Below, in pieces: positions 8,736 to 22,363 of a DNA stretch of 64,000 bases. Source of the DNA: Sphingobium ummariense RL-3 (GTDB lineage: Bacteria > Pseudomonadota > Alphaproteobacteria > Sphingomonadales > Sphingomonadaceae); assembly GCF_000447205.1 (NCBI RefSeq), contig NZ_AUWY01000101.1:1-64000 (forward strand), in the 5' to 3' direction. Below the pieces are notes generated by a model that did no database searches, was not told where the DNA came from, and worked only from the letters and a program-made list of their open reading frames with translations. Position 1 is the stretch's first letter. The number at the start of each line of letters is the position of its first letter. Made by a program: the position numbers and the translations under genes.

Positions 8736-9194
8736 GAGAAAATCCTCGCTCGCGCCAATGTCGATCTTTCCCCTACTAGCGATTCCGGGGAGCCTTCGGT
8801 GGAGCTGGGCACGAAGAAAATGCAGAAACGGGGTCATGGCTGGGTGTTCGTCAGGAGAACCTTGTCGGTTACATCAATGACACTGCGGGGTCCGTATTCG
8901 CGCAGAAGTTGCCGGGCAGTCGCGTTCTGAACGCGGGGCGTTTCGGGCCCCGACCGGACCCAGCGGAGGAGAAAACCCTCGAGAATGCGTTCGATCGATC
9001 GCGTGCAAGTACCCTTTCAGAACGCGGATACCATGATGCAGCCGGACGACAATGGAACGACGCCGGGTGTATCGGCGGCGCTTGGCGAGTGGCGTGAAGC
9101 GGTTCTCATTGGAATCGCGATGCCGGGAGTGTTGGCACTCGGCTCACGGTCTTTGTTGGCGAAAGTCGGCGGCTTCGGCACGTATGGAACAGCT
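8736..9194. other. Unassigned stretch cut on the right by an IS5 element
   Basis: An open plus-strand frame from 8985 (including GEWREAVLIGIAMPG and LLAKVGGFGTYGTA) runs into the IS left end at 9195. It may be the start of an interrupted gene, but I do not recognise it. It does not continue the macrocyclase frame found on the right of the element, so the insertion site has been rearranged. Confidence 0.35.
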
Positions 9195-9258
9195 CTAGGC
9201 TCAGGACCCAATGATTGGCTGAGAGCGATGTGATTCAGGCTCCGCGAGGAGACTGAGC

Positions 9259-9606
9259 ATGAGCGACCTGTATTGGCTGACGGACGAGCAGATGGCGCGT
9301 TTGTCGCCGTATTTTCCCAAGAGTCACGGCAAGCCTCGGGTTGATGACCGGCGGGTGCTGAGCGGGATCATCTTCGTCAATCGCAACGGGCTGCGCTGGC
9401 GAGACGCGCCCAGGGAATACGGTCCGCACAAGACGCTCTACAACCGATGGAAACGGTGGGGCGAGATGGGCGTGTTTGGCCGGATGATGGAGGGTCTGTC
9501 CGCCCAGAAAGCCGAACCGCAGACCCTCATGATCGATGCGACCTATCTCAAGGCCCACCGCACGGCTTCCAGCCTTGGGGTAAAAAAGGGGATCTCGGCC
9601 GCCTGA
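9259..9606 (+). CDS. IS5-family transposase, first frame
   Basis: This 115-residue frame carries the N-terminal DUF4096-like domain (SDLYWLTDEQMARLSPYFP; RRVLSGIIFVNRNGLRWRDA) and the first catalytic aspartate (TLMIDATYLKAHR). It ends after SLGVKKGISAA. A TAAAAAAGGGG run at about 9581-9591 sits at the junction with the second frame. A -1 shift there would join the two halves into a full DDE transposase, as in the IS427-type group of IS5. Confidence 0.88.
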   Translation: MSDLYWLTDEQMARLSPYFPKSHGKPRVDDRRVLSGIIFVNRNGLRWRDAPREYGPHKTLYNRWKRWGEMGVFGRMMEGLSAQKAEPQTLMIDATYLKAHRTASSLGVKKGISAA

Positions 9607-10016
9607 TCGGACGGACCAAGGGCGGCATGAACACCAAGCTTCACGCCGTCACCGATGCCAACGGCCGCCCCTTGAGCTTCTTCATCACGGCCGGCCAGAT
9701 CAGCGATTACACCGGCGCGGCAGCCCTGCTCGATGATCTGCCCAAGGCGCAGTGGATGCTGGCTGACCGGGGCTATGACGCCGAATGGTTCAGGGACGCG
9801 CTCGAGCAAAAGGGCATCACGCCCTGCATCCCGGGCCGGAAATCCCGTTCCTTTCCAGTGAAATACGACAAGCGCCGATACAAACGCCGCAGCCGCATCG
9901 AGATCATGTTCGGCCGCCTGAAAGACTGGCGCCGTGTGGCAACCCGCTACGACCGCTGCCCAACCGTCTTCTTCTCCGCCATCGCCCTCGCAGCTACCGT
10001 GCTCTTCTGGCTGTGA
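9590..10016 (+). CDS. IS5-family transposase, second frame (DDE core)
   Basis: The frame is open from 9447, but meaningful sequence begins near 9590 after the slippery run, with GRLIGRTKGGMNTKLHAV. It holds the second aspartate in WMLADRGYDAEWF and the glutamate region RRYKRRSRIEIMFGRLKDWR, ending FFSAIALAATVLFWL. It is made only as a fusion with the first frame by -1 frameshifting. No internal damage is visible, so the element may be functional. Confidence 0.88.
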
Positions 10017-10036
10017 TCAACGAGTCCTGAGCCTAG

Positions 10037-10531
10037 TTTGATTGCCCAGCAAGCGCCTTGCCTGGCAAGGCGTTTCATATCGGCATGATTGCCCGCATGC
10101 AGGAGCATATGGAAACGCCATTCCAGAGCGATGGCCCATCGATGATCACGCCGCTGATGGCGCAGCCCGTGCTGGAGGCCTGCCTCGCTATCCCAAGCTG
10201 GAAATGGATATCGGTCGGCAGAAACAGGGCAGTCATCCGCGATGCATTTGGAGAACGGTTGCCACAGAAGATCATCGACCGGAAGGGAAAGCCAGGCCCG
10301 GAGAGCTTCTCGTTCCAGCTTCTGAAGGCGCGCGAGCAGGAGCTGAGAGAAATTCTCCTCGACGGCCTGCTGGCTTCTCATGGGATCATAGACTGGGACA
10401 AGATTGAAGCCGCGTTCCACGCACTCGCGACACAGGACGGTATGCAAGGACGGAGGTTGCTCCAACTCGCCGACGCCGAAGCCTGGTGCCGACATTGGTC
10501 AGGTCGGAAGATGGCCCGGCATGATGTATGA
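10037..10531 (+). pseudogene. Lasso-peptide macrocyclase (asparagine synthetase-like C protein), 3' fragment
   Basis: The frame in phase with LPGKAFHIGMIARMQEHME continues with MITPLMAQPVLEACLAIPSW, KWISVGRNRAVIRDAFGERLP, and ends ADAEAWCRHWSGRKMARHDV. This matches the C-terminal part of the asparagine-synthetase homologues that close the isopeptide ring of lasso peptides in sphingomonads and Caulobacterales. In these, the run P-L-x-x-Q-P-x-x-E-x-C-L-x-I-P-x-W is characteristic. The glutaminase domain and the ATP pyrophosphatase loop are missing, since the sequence left of 10037 is an IS5 element. It is therefore a relic. An ordinary AsnB tail is the alternative, but the context of an isopeptidase relic nearby favours lasso. 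Confidence 0.72.
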
Positions 10532-10532
10532 T

Positions 10533-10934
10533 TCAGGCGGTTCGCAGCCAATTGGCGATGACGAGGCCATCGACCCGCTCGAATTCGCGAACATTATCGG
10601 TGACGAGCGTCGCCCTGATGGTGAGGGCGTGCGCCGCAATCAACATGTCGTTCGCGCCGATCGGCGTACCGCGCCGCTCAAGATCGGCCCTCAGCCGCCC
10701 ATAATGCGCATTGGCATCGTCGCCGAGCGGCAATATGGGGAGCAGCTCCAATATGGCCTCCAGCTGTGCGGTCAGCCGGGGGAATCCCCGTCGCTCGGCG
10801 CCATAACGCAGCTCGCTCGCGACGATGATGCTGGTCGCGATATTGTTCTCGCCGACCTCGGCGATGTGCGCCGCAATCACGCCTTGAGGATGCCGGATGA
10901 GGTCCGACAGGATATTCGTGTCGAGAAGGAACAT
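10533..10934 (-). CDS. vapC: VapC-type PIN-domain toxin
   Basis: The 133-residue PIN-domain endoribonuclease starts FLLDTNILSDLIRHP, giving the first acidic residue. Further acidic residues lie in ASELRYGAERR, in GANDMLIAAHAL and in LVTDNVREFERV, as expected for a four-acid PIN centre. It would cleave RNA unless neutralised by the antitoxin whose gene ends three bases upstream. The stop lies directly against the macrocyclase relic, converging with it. The pair may help to stabilise this unstable region. Confidence 0.9.
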   Translation of the reverse strand: MFLLDTNILSDLIRHPQGVIAAHIAEVGENNIATSIIVASELRYGAERRGFPRLTAQLEAILELLPILPLGDDANAHYGRLRADLERRGTPIGANDMLIAAHALTIRATLVTDNVREFERVDGLVIANWLRTA

Positions 10935-10937
10935 CGA

Positions 10938-11171
10938 TCAGAAGGCAACGGGATCGGCGGGAAGATCATCGATAGGACCGAAATCATCGTCGATCGGCTG
11001 CAATGTCTTCAGCCTTGCCAGCAGCGAGGGCGTCGGCGCTGGCTCGATGATGATTCGCGAGCCCTCCTTGCGCATGATGGCGTCCTCTCCTGGAAGCTCA
11101 AACTCACGAGGGATGCGCACGGCCTGGCTGCGACCGTTCTTGAACAGTTTGACGTGGCGCTCGATATTCAT
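10938..11171 (-). CDS. vapB: VapB-type antitoxin
   Basis: The 77-residue protein has an N-terminal AbrB/SpoVT-like swapped-hairpin DNA-binding domain (HVKLFKNGRSQAVRIPREFE). An acidic C-terminal tail (PIDDDFGPIDDLPADPVAF) should bind and block the VapC toxin encoded just downstream. Such antitoxins repress their own promoter together with the toxin. The gene is intact. Confidence 0.88.
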   Translation of the reverse strand: MNIERHVKLFKNGRSQAVRIPREFELPGEDAIMRKEGSRIIIEPAPTPSLLARLKTLQPIDDDFGPIDDLPADPVAF

Positions 11172-11215
11172 GGCCGCTCCTTGGCATAGGCCTTAGCATA
11201 TGCCGACCAGCCTCG

Positions 11216-11640
11216 CTACGAAAACCGCAGCCTCGGCGCCGATCCTGTAACGCCGTCATGATGTCCGTCATCGAATTGAAGGCCGGACGATTCCGCTGTT
11301 GCCTTAGCCGGCCCCCATCTGCCGGTTCGATCCCTCATTCCTTCCCATCTCTTGCGCCATTCGTCGTCGGTCGGAGCGATTCCCCGGAGCCAGAAATCGA
11401 ACCAGGCGATGTTCCGATCATAGATCGAGAGCCGGTGAGCCGGCTGCCATTTGATGTGAAACTCGTCGGGATAAAGATAGGCATCTACGGGCTGGCGATA
11501 GAAGTGCAGCGCGCGAATCTATTCCAGCGCATAGAGATATGCGTCATCCGCAAGATTGAGGAGTAGGGGGACGTTGATTCTTGCCGCATTTCTCGAAACG
11601 GACATGGAACGCCAGAAATCCGTGTCGTCCTGCGACAGGA
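11216..11640 (-). pseudogene. Lasso-peptide isopeptidase (Atxe2-like S9), C-terminal fragment with stop
   Basis: The minus-strand translation reads DFWRSMSVSRNAARINVP, LLLNLADDAYLYALE, a TAG at 11519-11521, then in the same frame VDAYLYPDEFHIKWQPAHR and LSIYDRNIAWFDFWLRG, ending at a TAG at 11216-11218. The block PDE-F/Y-H-x-K-W-Q-P-x-H-R ... WFDFWL is what I know from the C-terminus of Atxe2-type lasso isopeptidases; the histidine in PDEFH should be catalytic. The serine-bearing part is gone, replaced by an IS5 relic from about 11645. Truncation and an in-frame stop make it a pseudogene. A generic S9 peptidase is the alternative. Confidence 0.68.
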
Positions 11641-11644
11641 GGGG

Positions 11645-12213
11645 ATGACCCGGTGGTGCCATGCCGGTGTATGGGAGCGGGTGTTCGACACGCTGACCGC
11701 CGACAGCGACAACCAGTATCTGATGATCGACAGCACCACCGTCCGCGCCCATCAACAGGCGGCGACCTGAAAGGGGAGGCAAGGACCAGGCGCTGGGGCG
11801 TTCCTGAGGTGGACTGACGACCAAGATCCACATGCTGGCGAACATGTTTGGCCGACCATTACGCTTTCGCATCACACCGGGGCAGGCCAGCGACGTCACT
11901 GCCGCTCCCGATCTTCTGGAAGGCCAGAAGGCCGTGGCCATACTCGCTGACAAAACCTATGACAGCAATGACTTACGGGGACGGATCGCCGCCATGAAGG
12001 CCGACGCGGTCATCCCGTCAAAGCGCAATCGCAAGGCTTTCATTCCGCACGACACCGCCATCTACAAGCACCGTAACCGGATCGAGCGATGCTTTGGCTG
12101 CCTCAAGCATTTCCGTCGCTTCGCTACACGCTACGATCGCCGCACCGCCCACTTCAACGGCTTCGTTCACCTCGCCGCAGCTATGATCTGGCTGCGGTGA
12201 ATGTCGATCCGGC
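11645..12213 (+). pseudogene. IS5-family transposase relic, 5' truncated and frameshifted
   Basis: The first piece reads VWERVFDTLTADSDNQYLM, IDSTTVRAHQQAAT and then a stop. After frame changes the protein resumes from 11832 with MLANMFGRPLRFRITPGQAS, ILADKTYDSNDLRGRIA and KHRNRIERCFGCLKHFRRFA. These are the DDE residues of an IS5 transposase split over two or three frames. The N-terminus is missing on the isopeptidase side. A second IS5 element abuts it at 12214. Confidence 0.82.
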
Positions 12214-12844
12214 CTAAGGTCTGTGGGGATTCATCGTGAATTGATGACGGCGGCGGCGAGGTAGATCATGGCCTCGAAGCTCCGATCGGTTTTGCAGGCG
12301 CGCATTGCGATGCGTTTGAATTCCTTGAGTTTACAGAAGAAGTTTTCAATCAGGTGGCGCCATTTGTACATCTCGACATCCAGCGGGATGGGTTTGGCGC
12401 GGCGTGGATGCTGCGAAATGACGACTTTGGCTCCACGCTCGTTGAGGTCTGCGACGATTTTGTTTCTGTCGAAGGCCTTGTCGGCGAGCAGAGCGCCGAA
12501 CTTGATGCCGTCGATGAGCGGGGGGACGCCGACAGTATCGAAGCGGTGGCCGGGCATCAGACGGAAGCGCACGAGGTTGCCCAAAGCATCGGTGAGCGCC
12601 AGTATCTTGGTCGTCATCCCGCCTTTGGAGCGGCCAATGGCCTGGCTCTGAGTCCCCCTTTATGGATGGCCCGCCCCTTATTGAGGCCCGGTTGTTCCTC
12701 CCGCTTCGCCCCGGATCAGTTACCTTGCCCAGACAGTGCGGTTCCATCTTCGCCCACTGGGCCTCGGTCAGTACAAAGCGTTCCATCCAGAGCGTGAATC
12801 ACATCTCCAGCAAAATGGGAATCCTAAATCCCCACAGGCCTTAG
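12214..12844 (-). mobile_element. IS5-family element with internal deletion
   Basis: The left end CTAAGGTCTGTGGGGATT at 12214 and the complement of the right end, CTAAGGCCTGTGGGGATT ending at 12844, form good inverted repeats. The element is about 631 bp, shorter than the usual 800-plus bp, because the middle of the transposase is deleted. Both ends remain, so it could in principle be moved by a related transposase supplied in trans. Confidence 0.82.
12231..12786 (-). pseudogene. IS5-family transposase with internal deletion
   Basis: The N-terminus MERFVLTEAQWAKMEPHCLG runs to DPGRSGRNNR. Then about 80-90 residues normally present, including the first catalytic aspartate, are missing. The rest resumes in another frame with MTTKILALTDALGNLVRFRL, LLADKAFDRNKIVADLNERG and KWRHLIENFFCKLKEFKRIA. 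It lacks a complete DDE triad and cannot be active. Confidence 0.85.
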
Positions 12845-12862
12845 ACCAGCCGTTTGAGTTAC

Positions 12863-16576: not shown

Positions 16577-19030
16577 TCACTCGGGACCGCCCAGATGCTC
16601 AGCGAAATATCGTATCGTCCGCATCACGCCATATGGCTCGCGGCCCCCGAAGTGGGTGGAGTCAGGCATGATCAACGTGTCGTAGACCTTTCCTGCCCGA
16701 TTGAACGCTGCAATGAGCTGCATGAGGTTCTGAAACGGCACGTTCTCGTCCGCTCCTGCCCCGATCAGCAGCAGATTGCCTTTGAGACGTTCCGCCAGGC
16801 TGCCGCTGAAAAGCCGTTGATAATAATCTTTCGTCCTTTGATCGGTGGGGATGCCGAACTTGCGCTCGGTGTTGAAGTCCATACTCGAGTCGAACAGATT
16901 GCCCGTGCTCTCGCCGGATACGACGACCTTGAAGAAATCAGGGTAGAGCAGCGTCGCACGGAGGCTGCCAAATCCGCCAAAAGAATGCCCGGTCGTACCC
17001 ACCCGGCCGAGGTCCAAATAGGGGCGGGTCGCAGCCATGTTGCGGATCGCGGCAACGTGATCGGCCGCGCCCATCGGATCGTCCGTTTCATCGAACGTCT
17101 CGCGAAACGCCTTGGAGCGGAACCCCATGCCCCGCGCATCGAAGCCTACTACGATAGCGCCGGCTTCCGCGAACGCGTGGGCGTTCAGCATGGTAGAGTT
17201 GAGAAAGACATCCCGGAATGTCGTCGGCGTGAACTTGGAGCCGGGATTTGGGTAGGTGATATCGATGATCGGGTATTTTTTGGCTGGGTCAAAGTTGATC
17301 GGCTTGACCATCAGGCCGTACAGATCGGTCTTCCCGTCCGCCGCCTTGACGACGAACTGTTCAGGCGGGCGCCATCCGGTCGCGGCGAGCGCAGTGATGT
17401 CCGCGCTGAGCACGTCAGCGATGGCCGTTCCGTCGATCCGGCGCAGCACCACCTTGTCCGGCTGGGCCGACGTGGAGAAGCTGTCGATGATGTATCGGCC
17501 GCTGGGCGAGATGCTCCCGCTCGAGGCGACAATCGGGGCGATCGGATTGATGAAATCGTGGTCGGCATTGTCCGGCGTCAGCAAACGCGGCTCGCCACCG
17601 TCGAGACTGACGCTGTAGAGATGGCGATAATAAGGGTTACGCCCCGCCTCACGCCCGGCCGCCGCGAAATAGGCCGTACGCGTCGTCTCATCGACCCCGA
17701 TGAGATCCGTTACAACCCACGCGCCTCGGGTCAGATGGCGTTTTACCCGCCCCGTTCTACCATCGTACAAGTAGAGATGGCCCCAGCCGTCGCGTTCGGA
17801 ATACCAGATTGCCTCCCTCCCGGACGACAGAACGTTTATATTCGCGCCGTTGAATGAATTGGCGTTGGTGGGAATAAATGCCTGCGATGTCTCGGTGATC
17901 ACGTCCGTGACTTTTCCGTCGGCAAGCGTGATCCGGGACAGCCGCGCTTCGCGACCGCCGCGCTTCGTTCCCAGATACCAGACCTCGGTCCCCGACCACC
18001 AGACCGTGCCCGTCAGGTAAATTGAAACCACCGCGCCATCGGCCAGCGTTTGAGGATCAATCGCGGCTGGCGTGACAGTGCCCGCTGCCATGTCGATGAT
18101 GTCCAACGTCGCATCGGGATAGCGCTCGTCGGACGCGAGCGGGAGGCGTCCGGTGTGGATGATGGGCCGACCGCCCTCTGGCGGAAGATATTCGGTGACG
18201 AGGTGGCGTTCGGGTATGTTCCGAAGATCATGCCGTGCCGCCAGGACATATCGTCCATCGGGCGACCAGAATGCACCATTGAGTGGTTCGGGCAGACCGG
18301 ACCGCCGCCGCACGACCCGCGTGAAATCAGTCTGGAGATCCTGCCCGCCATAAGCGAACCCCTCGACCCCTCCCGTGGTCAGTTGCCGCTCGGCACCGCT
18401 GTCGACCTCCCTGAGCCAGAGATTGTGGTCGCGAATGAACAGGGCGCGCTTGCGGTCCGGTGAAAAGACGAGATCGGCGCCGGGAATCGGCGTGGCGCCG
18501 CATGACGTCACCGGAAGATCGCAGCGATAAGTCTGCGTCGGCACATCACAACCGCCCACCCCCTGCGGCCAGCGACACTCGGCACCCGGCTTGGCGACGT
18601 TCACCAGGATCGAGCGACCATCGCCTGGCACGGCAATGCTGACGATCCTCGGCACTCCCTGAGCGCCTGCGGTGTTAAGGGCCGCGTTCATCGCCAGAGG
18701 ATCGAATAGTTGCTCCTGCCGCCCCGTCGCGGCATCGACGACGATGAAGCCCTGCTCGCCATTATCCAGTACCTTGCGGAACCAGAACCGGTCCGTTTTG
18801 CCGATCCAGCGAAAGGTCACACCGCTGTTGCGCACCTTGGCGAACAGCTTCGCGCTGGCGAACTGCTGGGCATGGGCGACCCGCGCATCCAGATCGGCCT
18901 GCGACTGATCCCGCTGAGCAGCGGCGCTGGTCGCGGTGAGCATGGCGCTGGCGAGCAAGATAACACGGTACGGGCGCGATGCCGTGCTCCTCGCCTGTTT
19001 ACGTTTCCGTCCGGTCAGCTCAATCATCAT
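16577..19030 (-). CDS. S9 (DPP-IV-like) exported serine peptidase
   Basis: The 817-residue protein has an N-terminal signal (VILLASAMLTATSAAAQ). A DPPIV_N beta-propeller follows at about residues 100-550 (FWSPDGRYVLAARHDLR; WYSERDGWGHLYLYDGRTG), then an alpha/beta hydrolase domain. The triad can be read as serine in TTGHSFGGFGS, aspartate in GAGADENVPF and histidine in MPDSTHFGG. Such enzymes remove dipeptides or cut small peptides in the periplasm. It lies downstream of a FecI-FecR-TonB receptor set on the same strand, with a 96-bp gap to the receptor. This suggests that it digests what the receptor imports. Its C-terminus differs from the isopeptidase relic at 11216-11640, so I do not call it an isopeptidase. 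Confidence 0.82.
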   Translation of the reverse strand: MMIELTGRKRKQARSTASRPYRVILLASAMLTATSAAAQRDQSQADLDARVAHAQQFASAKLFAKVRNSGVTFRWIGKTDRFWFRKVLDNGEQGFIVVDAATGRQEQLFDPLAMNAALNTAGAQGVPRIVSIAVPGDGRSILVNVAKPGAECRWPQGVGGCDVPTQTYRCDLPVTSCGATPIPGADLVFSPDRKRALFIRDHNLWLREVDSGAERQLTTGGVEGFAYGGQDLQTDFTRVVRRRSGLPEPLNGAFWSPDGRYVLAARHDLRNIPERHLVTEYLPPEGGRPIIHTGRLPLASDERYPDATLDIIDMAAGTVTPAAIDPQTLADGAVVSIYLTGTVWWSGTEVWYLGTKRGGREARLSRITLADGKVTDVITETSQAFIPTNANSFNGANINVLSSGREAIWYSERDGWGHLYLYDGRTGRVKRHLTRGAWVVTDLIGVDETTRTAYFAAAGREAGRNPYYRHLYSVSLDGGEPRLLTPDNADHDFINPIAPIVASSGSISPSGRYIIDSFSTSAQPDKVVLRRIDGTAIADVLSADITALAATGWRPPEQFVVKAADGKTDLYGLMVKPINFDPAKKYPIIDITYPNPGSKFTPTTFRDVFLNSTMLNAHAFAEAGAIVVGFDARGMGFRSKAFRETFDETDDPMGAADHVAAIRNMAATRPYLDLGRVGTTGHSFGGFGSLRATLLYPDFFKVVVSGESTGNLFDSSMDFNTERKFGIPTDQRTKDYYQRLFSGSLAERLKGNLLLIGAGADENVPFQNLMQLIAAFNRAGKVYDTLIMPDSTHFGGREPYGVMRTIRYFAEHLGGPE

Positions 19031-19126
19031 GCCCCCCTGAAGGTGTCGATTGTGCGAGGTGTATGGTCGTCAGACATGCAATCTTGGCCGGCCCGTGTTG
19101 GAGAGCCGGTGCGCGCGTTCGTGGCG

Positions 19127-22100
19127 TTAGAAGCTCGCCTTCATCGTCACGGCGAAGCGCCGTCCGAGCGTGTCATAGCTAGAGGGGAAGGTATTTCCGC
19201 TGTTGAAGCCGCCGGCGCCGATGGTACCGCCGACGATGGGCGGCTTCTTGTCGAAGAGATTCTGGACGGTCAGCTGGAGCGAATATCTGCTTCCGACCAA
19301 CTGCCTGAAGCTGAGGTCGAAGTAGTCGTAGCTCGGAATGCGGTTGAAGTCGAAGCTCTCGCCCAGTTCTGAAATTGTGCCATTGAAGAGGCGATCGGGC
19401 GAGCGCAGAGCATCTATGTGTCGCCAGAGCAGAGAGATGTCGGACCGACTGTGGAGCGAGATTGTGTTGCGCACCGACCATTGGAATTCGGGACGGAGGG
19501 ACGTACAGCCCACGGAGTAGATGCCGACGCAATCGCGGTCGACGCTGGCGGGCGACGCCTGGAAGCTGGATTTGCCTGCCCAGTTGCCCGAAGCGATGAG
19601 CATCCACCGAGCGAAACCTAGATCATGCTGGTATGTGGCAGTGACATCGATGCCGTCCGCGGCGAGGCGGCCAAGATTTGAGCGCGCGAGTGTGATGCCG
19701 GGAAAGACGGTCTGATCGCCATTCAACCCCCCGGTGAGGGGATCGCGCCGGATCAGCATGCAGGAGGGGTTGGTGAGGCTAGGACTGTTGAAACAGCCAT
19801 CGACGATATCGACGGTTGTGGGAGCGGAAATCGCGCCCGTTACCTTGATATTGTAATAATCGACAGTCAGGCTGAAGCGCGGCAGGAAAGCGGGCGTAAA
19901 AACGGCACCGATCGTCCAGCTCGTAGACTCCTCTGGCCGTAGGCCCAGGTTCCCGCCGGTGGTGACGTTCGCTTGGCCGGCCGTGGGCTGCTGAATGACG
20001 CCGATCTGGTTTGCAGGAGCTCCCTGCGCAATACAGACATCGCGTAAAACACCGGACGGCGTTGGCCGTCCGGAAACCGGCGCGCCGCGATCCGTGAGGT
20101 TAGCGCACGGATCGTCCTGAAGGCGGCCGATGCCTGTGGCCCGTGGCTCGAACAACTCGAAGATGTTGGGCGCGCGTACGGCACGAGCATAATTACCGCG
20201 TAGTTTTGCACCGCGGACAGGCGACCAGCCACCCCCGACCTTCCAGGTCGTGGTTTGAAAGGACGGACTGCCGGGCGCATCAATCGAATAGCGCGAATAG
20301 CGGACGCCCGCTTCCAGTGTGAGATCTTGCAGAAGCGGTCTGTCCTGTACGATCGGTGCCACCACTTCACCCACCGCTTCCCAAACATCGTACACGCCCC
20401 TGATATTTGGCAGGCCACCACCACCACTGGTGTCGGCCGCGAGGAGCACGGCACTCACTGTCTGGGACGCCTTGTAACGGCGATATTCTCCGCCGACCGC
20501 AAAGGAGACGGGGTTTGCCGCCCACGGGAATGACCAGCCCAGATCGCCGGAGATCTTGGCATTGACCTGCGTGAGCGCGGTACGCTGAGTGACTGTGGTG
20601 TCGGTCGTGAGGAAACCGTTCATCGCCGGCGTGATCGAACCGTCCGGCCCGAACCAGTTCACCGCCACACAATTGTTCGACGGATCTTGGCACACGATGT
20701 TGCCCGCTGCATCCCGTGTCGCGAGCATTGACTGGCGGATACGCGAGGTGCGGAAAAAATTCTCCTGGAGAACAACATTCTCGCTTTCGCCATAGGCGCC
20801 GAAAACATCATAGCTGATATTACTCGTGATCGCGCCCCTCAAGCCAAACTGATAGTCTTGAAATGTCGTCTTCGCGGTCAGATAGCGGAGACCGTTCTCC
20901 ACCGAGCGGCGCGACATCACTGAGGAGACTGTGCGATAGGCGGGGTCCCCCGCCATAGCGGTCGAGGCGGCAAGGCAGTCGGACGCACTGATCGCATTGG
21001 CGGCGCAGAATTGATTACGCGCTCCCGCCGGGAGGTAAGGGTTGCTGAGCGGAATCTGGACCGGTGTCGAAAATGCGCCGCCAGGCGCGATGATGATGGC
21101 GACCGTGTTGCGCGACCAGATGGCGCGTCCATAGACCTCCGCCGCGTCGGAAATCTCATAGCGAGAGGTGCCATAGAGGTTATAACGCTCGAAGCCAGTC
21201 TGATAGAGATTGAAGGGGTTGAAATTGTAAGGAGCATAGATGGTGGCCAGGGCGCCGCCGCTCGTGATCTGCTGCGATCCGCTACCCGGGAGGCTGAACG
21301 TGCTGGGGACGGCAACGGTCGATCCGCTTGGGAGGCCCGTGATCGAATCGAATTGACGCACTCCGAAGGATCGTGATCCCTGGTAGACGGGATCAGCCTT
21401 TTGATAGCCTGCCGCGAGCACGATATTCCCGCGCCCTCCGCCAAAGCGTTTGCCCGCGATGATATCGCCGCGAAAGACATTGCCGTCGCCTTGTTCCGTG
21501 ATCTGTTCCGACAGCGTTGCCTCAAGTCCGGTGAAGCGGCTTCTGGTCACGAAGTTGACCACGCCGGACACTGCATCCGCGCCATAGGTCGTCGAGGCGC
21601 CACCTGTCAGCACGTCCGTCCGCTCGATCATCGCCAACGGGATATTGTTCAGGTCGAAACGGCCCTGGAGTTCGGCGGGGGCCAGGCGGGCGCCGTCGAC
21701 AAGGATTAGGTTCCGGTTGTCACCGAGGCCGCGGAGGTTGACAAAAGAGGCGCCGGCGTTTCCGAGGTTCTGGGCGGAGCCGCTCGCGGGCACGAGGCCC
21801 GGCAGGTCGCGAAGGAGCTCCTCGGCCGTGTTGGACGATTTGAGCTGGATCTGGTCAGCAGATACCACATTCACTGGCGAAGAGCGCTGGAGGTTGGGGT
21901 TCCGGATGAGGGAGCCGGTGACGACGATGTCTCCCGAAGCCGCATTCTGGCTTGCGGCCGCCTCGCCTGGAGGCGGCCCGGAGTCGAGCAACTCGTCGGG
22001 CGTGTCGCTTTGCGCGAGGGACATGGGACGGCTGGCATTTACCTTTTTTGCTGCCGGCCTTTGCTGCTCCCGGACGATCGCCACAGCTCCGGCAAAGCCA

Positions 22101-22363
22101 GGTTGAGCGCGGAAACCGGTGCCTGCAAGGATGCGGGCAAGGGCATCGTCCGCTGACATGCTTCCGCGCACGCCGTCGCTGCGCACGCCGATCATATCGT
22201 CACCCCGGAACAACACCTGGCGACCGGACTGCCGAACATAGTCCGAGAGGGCGGACTTCAAACTACCGGCCTCGATCTGGTAGGCGCGTGGTTGTGCACT
22301 AGCAGGCGTAACCATCGCAGTCAGACACACGCCGGCGGACAGTGCCGCAAAAGTCCTGGTCAT
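19127..22363 (-). CDS. TonB-dependent receptor with STN signalling domain
   Basis: The 1078-residue outer-membrane receptor starts with a signal peptide ending TPASAQ. An STN (secretin/TonB N-terminal) domain lies at about residues 25-100 (YQIEAGSLKSALSDYVRQSG ... ADDALARILAGTGF). It is followed by a TonB-box region (GDIVVTGSLIR), a plug (RGLGDNRNLILVDGARLAPA; MIERTDVLTGGASTTYGADA) and a long barrel ending TLGRRFAVTMKASF. The STN domain should touch FecR, whose gene is directly upstream, so substrate binding can activate the FecI sigma factor. A peptidase gene downstream suggests a peptide ligand; a siderophore remains possible. Confidence 0.88.
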   Translation of the reverse strand: MTRTFAALSAGVCLTAMVTPASAQPRAYQIEAGSLKSALSDYVRQSGRQVLFRGDDMIGVRSDGVRGSMSADDALARILAGTGFRAQPGFAGAVAIVREQQRPAAKKVNASRPMSLAQSDTPDELLDSGPPPGEAAASQNAASGDIVVTGSLIRNPNLQRSSPVNVVSADQIQLKSSNTAEELLRDLPGLVPASGSAQNLGNAGASFVNLRGLGDNRNLILVDGARLAPAELQGRFDLNNIPLAMIERTDVLTGGASTTYGADAVSGVVNFVTRSRFTGLEATLSEQITEQGDGNVFRGDIIAGKRFGGGRGNIVLAAGYQKADPVYQGSRSFGVRQFDSITGLPSGSTVAVPSTFSLPGSGSQQITSGGALATIYAPYNFNPFNLYQTGFERYNLYGTSRYEISDAAEVYGRAIWSRNTVAIIIAPGGAFSTPVQIPLSNPYLPAGARNQFCAANAISASDCLAASTAMAGDPAYRTVSSVMSRRSVENGLRYLTAKTTFQDYQFGLRGAITSNISYDVFGAYGESENVVLQENFFRTSRIRQSMLATRDAAGNIVCQDPSNNCVAVNWFGPDGSITPAMNGFLTTDTTVTQRTALTQVNAKISGDLGWSFPWAANPVSFAVGGEYRRYKASQTVSAVLLAADTSGGGGLPNIRGVYDVWEAVGEVVAPIVQDRPLLQDLTLEAGVRYSRYSIDAPGSPSFQTTTWKVGGGWSPVRGAKLRGNYARAVRAPNIFELFEPRATGIGRLQDDPCANLTDRGAPVSGRPTPSGVLRDVCIAQGAPANQIGVIQQPTAGQANVTTGGNLGLRPEESTSWTIGAVFTPAFLPRFSLTVDYYNIKVTGAISAPTTVDIVDGCFNSPSLTNPSCMLIRRDPLTGGLNGDQTVFPGITLARSNLGRLAADGIDVTATYQHDLGFARWMLIASGNWAGKSSFQASPASVDRDCVGIYSVGCTSLRPEFQWSVRNTISLHSRSDISLLWRHIDALRSPDRLFNGTISELGESFDFNRIPSYDYFDLSFRQLVGSRYSLQLTVQNLFDKKPPIVGGTIGAGGFNSGNTFPSSYDTLGRRFAVTMKASF

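Follow-up and report, generated by a model that had tools for sequence, protein, structure and literature searches.

The window, by which we mean the whole 64,000-nucleotide stretch of DNA analyzed here, contains the two tail ends of a destroyed lasso-peptide cluster, facing each other, with an intact-looking toxin-antitoxin (TA) pair between them. Its features follow one another as a left insertion sequence (IS), the tail of the macrocyclase gene (C), vapC, vapB, the tail of the isopeptidase gene (E), a truncated IS and an IS-like element (Table 1). We consider it very probable that they are the fossil of one isopeptidase-type lasso cluster, in which vapBC entered the junction between C and E and IS activity together with deletions removed the rest. 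The relic alone is the dead remnant of a known cluster type; the junction matters more, as it is a recurrent insertion slot in related clusters. The original prediction for this DNA had proposed that an intact lasso cluster once lay at positions 10037-11640 and was broken by IS5 elements on both sides. Its observation was right, its interpretation was largely right, and its range agrees to about 15 bases with the limits of homology to the closest intact cluster. It overlooked the vapBC pair between the tails, an in-frame TAG in E, and the truncation of the right-hand IS.

Table 1. Features of the relic and its flanks, in order along the window.
Feature	Position	Strand	Remarks
IS5-family element, 841 bp	9196..10036	+	Adjoins the C fragment on the right; each end has CTAG (by eye)
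Lasso macrocyclase (C), 3′ fragment	10037..10531	+	164 codons and stop; homologous to residues 408-568 of 579 of L014 C
vapC, predicted PIN-domain toxin, 133 aa	10533..10934	-	Open frame; profile matches
vapB, antitoxin, 77 aa	10938..11171	-	Open frame, upstream of vapC; profile matches
Atxe2-type isopeptidase (E), 3′ fragment	11216..11653	-	Homologous part 11318-11653, corresponding to residues 557-668 of 674 of L014 E
Truncated IS5-family element	11650..12211	+	5′ part of transposase missing; joined directly to E
Further IS-like element	12214..12847	-	Transposase-like ORF 12231-12617; inverted-repeat ends by eye

The plus-strand frame at 10037-10531 reads FDCPASALPGKAFHIG...PLMAQPVLEACLAIPSWKW... 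and encodes 164 residues from the C-terminus of an asparagine-synthase homologue; the P-L-x-x-Q-P-x-x-E-x-C-L-x-I-P-x-W pattern is present, as had been claimed. It matches PF00733 at 37.1 bits (cut-off 21), and its asparagine-synthase domain is nearer to lasso cyclases than to AsnB, with E-values of 1.7e-11 for the macrolactam cyclase profile NF033561 (albusnodin/ikarugamycin) and 4.5e-8 for the lasso cyclase profile NF033535 versus 0.097 for the AsnB profile TIGR01536; because it is a fragment, it stays under every curated NCBIfam cut-off. A tree of 79 rows pairs it with the macrocyclase of the cluster L014 described below (support 100/98) and sets two AsnB-like proteins of its own genome apart. 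These E-values and the tree position rule out AsnB of primary metabolism. The gene is not full length, its N-terminal and ATP-binding parts being absent, and is a relic rather than a working member of the family. A search of its own genome with the full L014 macrocyclase returned the tail itself and two weak matches (1.1e-7 and 4.8e-5), both in AsnB-like proteins, and no further piece of C. The frame has no internal stop over its 164 codons, and the decay of C may therefore be recent, or the frame may be open by chance. Since synonymous sites are near saturation, only the low dN is usable (0.19 for C and 0.16 for E), and it mostly reflects time before decay.

On the minus strand, the translation reads ...YPDEFHIKWQPAHRLSIYDRNIAWFDFWLRG... 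and includes the S9-enzyme C-terminus with PDEFHIKWQPAHR and WFDFWL that had been described. Compared with known structures with X at the stop position, this tail is related to AtxE2 across the hydrolase C-terminus (5txe and 5txc, 4.2e-25; 5jrk, 1.4e-4), which rules out an unrelated S9 peptidase. The frame continues to 11216 without homology and is interrupted by an in-frame TAG at 11519-11521. All 7 isopeptidases compared share a Glu (E594 in L014) at the site that aligns with 5txe chain position 610, which we take to be the catalytic acid; the window has Ala there. Because most of the gene is gone, a stop lies within the remainder and this Glu is replaced, E cannot work; an intact frame, the propeller, the Ser nucleophile and the catalytic acid are all lacking. 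The full L014 isopeptidase found in the window's own genome this tail, with its one TAG, and one weak match (1.7e-6), and no further piece of E. An intact S9 gene beside a TonB receptor, at 16577-19030, was considered as an isopeptidase and rejected. It matches structures of dipeptidyl peptidase IV best, and since AtxE2 is absent among the best 60 of its 72 structure matches, it is not counted in the relic. The region 16577-22363, with this DPP-IV-type S9 gene and the TonB receptor, which has a weak STN match under the cut-off, has an isopeptidase-like layout.

Both fragments thus have lasso proteins as their best matches, C by profiles and tree and E by AtxE2, as the original prediction would have it. 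Over all loci collected, the best relative of both tails is a single cluster, L014 of Sphingobium sp. AP50 (NZ_FNYZ01000018.1), with 71% identity over 160 aa for C and 75% over 111 aa for E; the next relatives by bit score reach 47% and 51%. L014, the closest intact cluster for both tails, differs from the window in being complete and free of TA genes: sigma factor, FecR, TonB receptor and E lie on one strand and face C, B, precursor and GntR (gene names follow from position and from likeness to annotated related clusters), with a junction of 55 bp. The facing arrangement was found in 65 of 80 relative loci, where C lies within 600 bp of E on the opposite strand, 62 of them with B. The facing tails are thus the native state rather than a rearrangement. 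The identity of the fragments, their shared best relative and their native layout together support the former presence of an intact cluster at this locus.

Little else of that cluster is left. The absence of a B protein noted for the window extends to the whole genome, in which PF13471 has no match; the same profile recognizes the B proteins of L014, L007 and L008. Among the window ORFs, no precursor-like ORF was found either (best E 0.26 with a home-made precursor HMM, one of whose 10 rows is out of frame), and the precursor A and protease B by which a lasso cluster is recognized are thus missing, B from the genome and the precursor from the window. An intact cluster at the syntenic place in sister genomes would have been further support, and we found no intact or intermediate version of the locus among 94 genomes of the genus. 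The neighboring hydrolase has matches at 1e-30 in 18 of the 94 (own genome included) and, besides the own genome, a close copy (78%) only in G420. By blastn, the 40 kb around that copy share with the window the hydrolase and one 82-base stretch near 61.7 kb; tblastx gave scattered short matches, which were left out of account.

Both flanking elements are related to annotated IS5 family transposases, in agreement with the original prediction, and the idea that IS5 elements broke the cluster on both sides holds insofar as such elements do flank the tails. Plain insertion does not account for all that is seen. The left IS ends exactly where homology to C begins, looks complete and has probably moved recently in this strain, given that it matches 10 further genomic sites with 99-100% identity along about 790-850 bases. 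The CTAG on both of its sides would suggest a simple insertion, yet the DNA to its left is not lasso DNA, no lasso homology being detected there in the comparison with L014. An unseen rearrangement must therefore have happened. A search of plasmids with this left flank (8840-9200) gave no match. On the right, homology to the IS starts at 11650 and overlaps the end of homology to E at 11653. The stretch recurs at 7 other genome places at 78%, and in a relative on a Sphingobium plasmid the IS5 family transposase ORF begins 211 bases before the homologous part, so the junction with E is not an IS end. Given the non-lasso left flank and the internal right junction, deletion or recombination must have taken part besides plain insertion.

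The genes between the tails have the layout of a VapBC type II module, a PIN toxin downstream of a MazE-like antitoxin with both frames open, and differ from the named families in scoring below the NCBIfam cut-offs for VapB and VapC; toxicity is predicted. VapC matches PF01850 (4.7e-18, 66.4 bits, cut-off 23.6) and VapCLeptosp (2.9e-32, 111.7 bits, under the curated 140), and VapB matches VapBLeptosp (2.4e-14, 53.1 bits, cut-off 100), TA_anti_VapB (5.5e-12, 45.7 bits, cut-off 60) and PF04014 (26.2 bits, cut-off 24.7). The stops of vapC and C are one base apart. Homology to L014 covers 10036-10515 (C) and 11361-11646 (E) at the DNA level and 10034-10516 and 11318-11653 at the protein level; by the DNA limits, vapBC takes the place of some 156 bases at the L014 junction, the final codons of C and E among them. 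Relatives of the pair, 70-72% identical and matching over 10543-11204, are carried by plasmids of Sphingobium and Sphingomonas, where no lasso gene lies under the match. No vapC relative was found at the C/E junction in 80 lasso loci, and this particular module was seen there only in the window.

The junction was then surveyed across a wider collection of 306 loci around isopeptidase matches, which overlap in genomes and exclude the window. A convergent E/C pair was present in 278, or 221 after removal of near-duplicates (loci whose joined C and E ends were 98% identical over >500 bases and whose gaps were similar); the 28 loci without such a pair, some of which stop at a contig end, fall outside the gap counts. 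Three matches (G754:C2, G723:C62 and G809:C2) and further low-scoring ones were left out. Of 20 plasmid isopeptidase matches, 14 were added, two (H36 and H44) were already in the set, and four were omitted, H48 and H50 as apparent repeat records, alike in species and score, and H52 and H55 as weak. The stop-to-stop gap between C and E was ≤100 bp in 193 of the 221 clusters, 101-250 bp in 6, 251-799 bp in 6, and ≥800 bp in 16. TA genes over Pfam cut-offs were found in 6 of these 16 wide gaps, and their kinds are unrelated. L018 has an HTH_3 gene with a RelE gene (PF06296), and L089 has PhdYeFM with PIN. L039, L185 and the plasmid cluster L296 of Sphingobium sp. V4 each have a divergent pair of Xre/MbcA/ParS and RES genes, and L020 has AbiEi followed by a frame-broken AbiEii (by eye) and further genes. 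The RES toxins of L039 and L296 are 37% identical, and BLASTP gives no significant match between that of L185 and either of them, so these modules are separate arrivals. In L018, L089, L185, L296 and L039, precursor, B, C and E are all present; separate TA modules have thus come to lie at the junctions of otherwise complete clusters, and we regard recurrent insertion at the C/E junction as shown. The clearest case is the comparison of L018 (Novosphingobium mathurense) with L008 (plasmid Lpl of Novosphingobium sp. PP1Y), which align at 93% identity in two blocks, of 7.8 kb and 7.1 kb; the space between the blocks measures 856 bases in L018, where it contains the RelE/HTH pair, and 16 bases in L008. 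Among the 14 plasmid clusters, L296 alone carried a TA module, the other 13 gaps being ≤48 bp.

The other 10 wide gaps are without a verified TA module and hold an MbnB-like enzyme (L183), a MerR gene with a cation efflux gene (L226), a chemoreceptor (L021), a kinase/phosphatase/patatin block (L366), genes read by eye, or nothing clear; cargo names in L043, L080, L270, L271, L275 and L365, like that of AbiEii in L020, were assigned by eye or without a Pfam match. Some of this cargo deserves mention in its own right. The gap of L183 (6750-8350) encodes an MbnB/TglH/ChrH-type RiPP enzyme (PF05114, 6.4e-45) with an unmatched second gene, and is possibly part of a lasso cluster with an added tailoring step. 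The gap of L332 contains, downstream of C, a second precursor ORF of benenodin-like type (1273-1443, E 1.6e-8 with a home-made HMM). The 7-kb block of L366 (1261-8468) has genes for a patatin-like phospholipase, a PIN-like protein, a protein kinase, PP2C and ROS/MucR, and resembles an island with defence or regulatory functions. Outside the clusters, AHL synthase genes are frequent (PF00765 in 18 of 300 small flank ORFs, among the families listed; for example, L007:6992-7612 and L008:21225-21851), and the flanks also have LuxR-type genes and the conjugation genes TraE, TraK, TrbI and VirB8, so that the clusters have both quorum-sensing and conjugation genes as neighbors.

TA genes are likely enriched over other junction cargo, the contrast being strong against the whole-genome rate and weak to strong against small flank ORFs. 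The 22 gaps of >250 bp sum to 46.9 kb. From 65 RES genes in 99 family genomes (316.4 Mb), 0.0096 would be expected in this much DNA, and 3 were observed; from 261 PIN genes in the same genomes, 0.039 would be expected, and 2 were observed, one of which (in L366) scores 22.2 bits, under the cut-off of 23.6. Both base rates are those of whole genomes rather than of mobile cargo. For a closer control, 300 of 590 small flank ORFs (904 flank ORFs in all) were scanned. Among the families listed (25 of 39 per batch), TA-like ORFs comprised at least one PIN_3 and at least two DUF6088, which we presume to be AbiEi-like, and one Xre ORF of L351 comes in addition; 28 flank families beyond those listed could add more. 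With 11 TA ORFs among about 45 gap ORFs (a rough hand count) against 4 of 300 in the flanks, Fisher's test gives p = 5e-8, and p = 0.011 (31 of 300) if all unlisted families are taken as TA. The phmmer counts use gap-derived queries and so lean towards the gaps. The enrichment is also partly post hoc, as TA genes occupied 4 of 7 wide gaps in the set that raised the idea and 2 of 9 in the loci added later.

We envisage the following course of events. The ancestral cluster would have had the order of its living relatives, with sigma factor, FecR, TonB receptor and E facing C, B, A and GntR. The junction is the place between the two facing operons where an insert breaks neither, and vapBC would have entered it while both gene tails were still present, trimming the last codons of each. 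IS activity and deletions on both sides would then have taken away the 5′ portion of each gene and all that lay further out, so that vapBC remains with about 0.5 kb from C and 0.34 kb from E. As we found no intact or intermediate version of the locus, we infer this order, vapBC first and loss later, from the geometry. Loss of a type II TA module is costly. TA modules at the junction could be retained on this account and would tie the two halves of a cluster together. Erosion seems to have reached both sides of vapBC and then stopped, perhaps because losing the pair was costly; this is what the costly-loss idea predicts, and chance could also account for it. We put forward tentatively, and think rather unlikely, a broader form of the idea: sphingomonad lasso clusters would repeatedly acquire addiction modules of unrelated kinds between the A-B-C synthesis operon and the E-TonB uptake and hydrolysis operon, these modules would punish loss of the cluster, and the window would be an end state, eroded from both sides as far as a module that could not be lost.

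Several other readings were weighed against the fossil cluster. The tails of an AsnB and of an ordinary S9 peptidase, unrelated to each other, might have been joined by IS activity in a region that is IS-rich and mosaic, both parent families being common. The profile E-values of C, the AtxE2 match of E, and the sharing of a single best cluster, L014, by two tails in native orientation make this extremely improbable. It is also conceivable, if rather unlikely, that vapBC came only after the cluster had been reduced to its tails, so that its position is accidental and uninformative on living clusters. The mobility of TA modules fits such a late arrival, as do the plasmid relatives without lasso genes under the match and the lack of this kind of vapBC at any intact junction in the 80 loci; other kinds of TA at the same junction in the five complete clusters argue against it.

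A further explanation, which we hold to be as likely as not, is that the junction receives TA modules solely because it is the one site between the operons where an insert is harmless to both, TA genes being common small mobile cargo with no bond to lasso genes. The varied other cargo, the predominance of wide gaps without verified TA, and the proximity of lanthipeptide clusters to defence genes, in the part of PMC12715929 consulted, all favor this explanation. The excess of RES genes over expectation speaks against it, with a base rate that describes whole genomes rather than mobile cargo.

Isopeptidase-type lasso clusters and their gene order were already known (PMC9266682 and PMC11006600, as far as the text available from them extends), and the accessible portion of PMC9266682 portrays their architecture as almost constant. 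With the astexin-, benenodin- and sphingopyxin-type clusters, the window shares C and an Atxe2-type E with facing tails, and its relatives carry GntR, a benenodin-family precursor, B, TonB receptor, FecR and sigma factor; it differs in keeping the two tails only, with vapBC between them, an insert of which the sections of PMC9266682 at hand make no mention. Class II lanthipeptide clusters are known to lie near defence genes (PMC12715929, in the excerpts available), and that study also cites such a neighborhood for lasso clusters. The likeness is that defence or TA genes occur close to RiPP genes; the difference is that, in those excerpts, neighbors are counted within a 40-kb region, whereas here the TA genes are inside the cluster, between two genes and at one junction. 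In the literature searched, we found no report of TA modules at the lasso C/E junction, which carries little weight since few subscription papers were covered and the sources were partial texts.

The available text of PMC9266682 describes what isopeptidase-type lasso peptides do as enigmatic, and of the 20 plasmid records that match an isopeptidase, 11 are typed as conjugative or mobilizable. If true, a recurrent TA slot between the facing operons would bear on how lasso clusters are kept or lost, and L018 and L008 form a natural pair in which to pursue that question.
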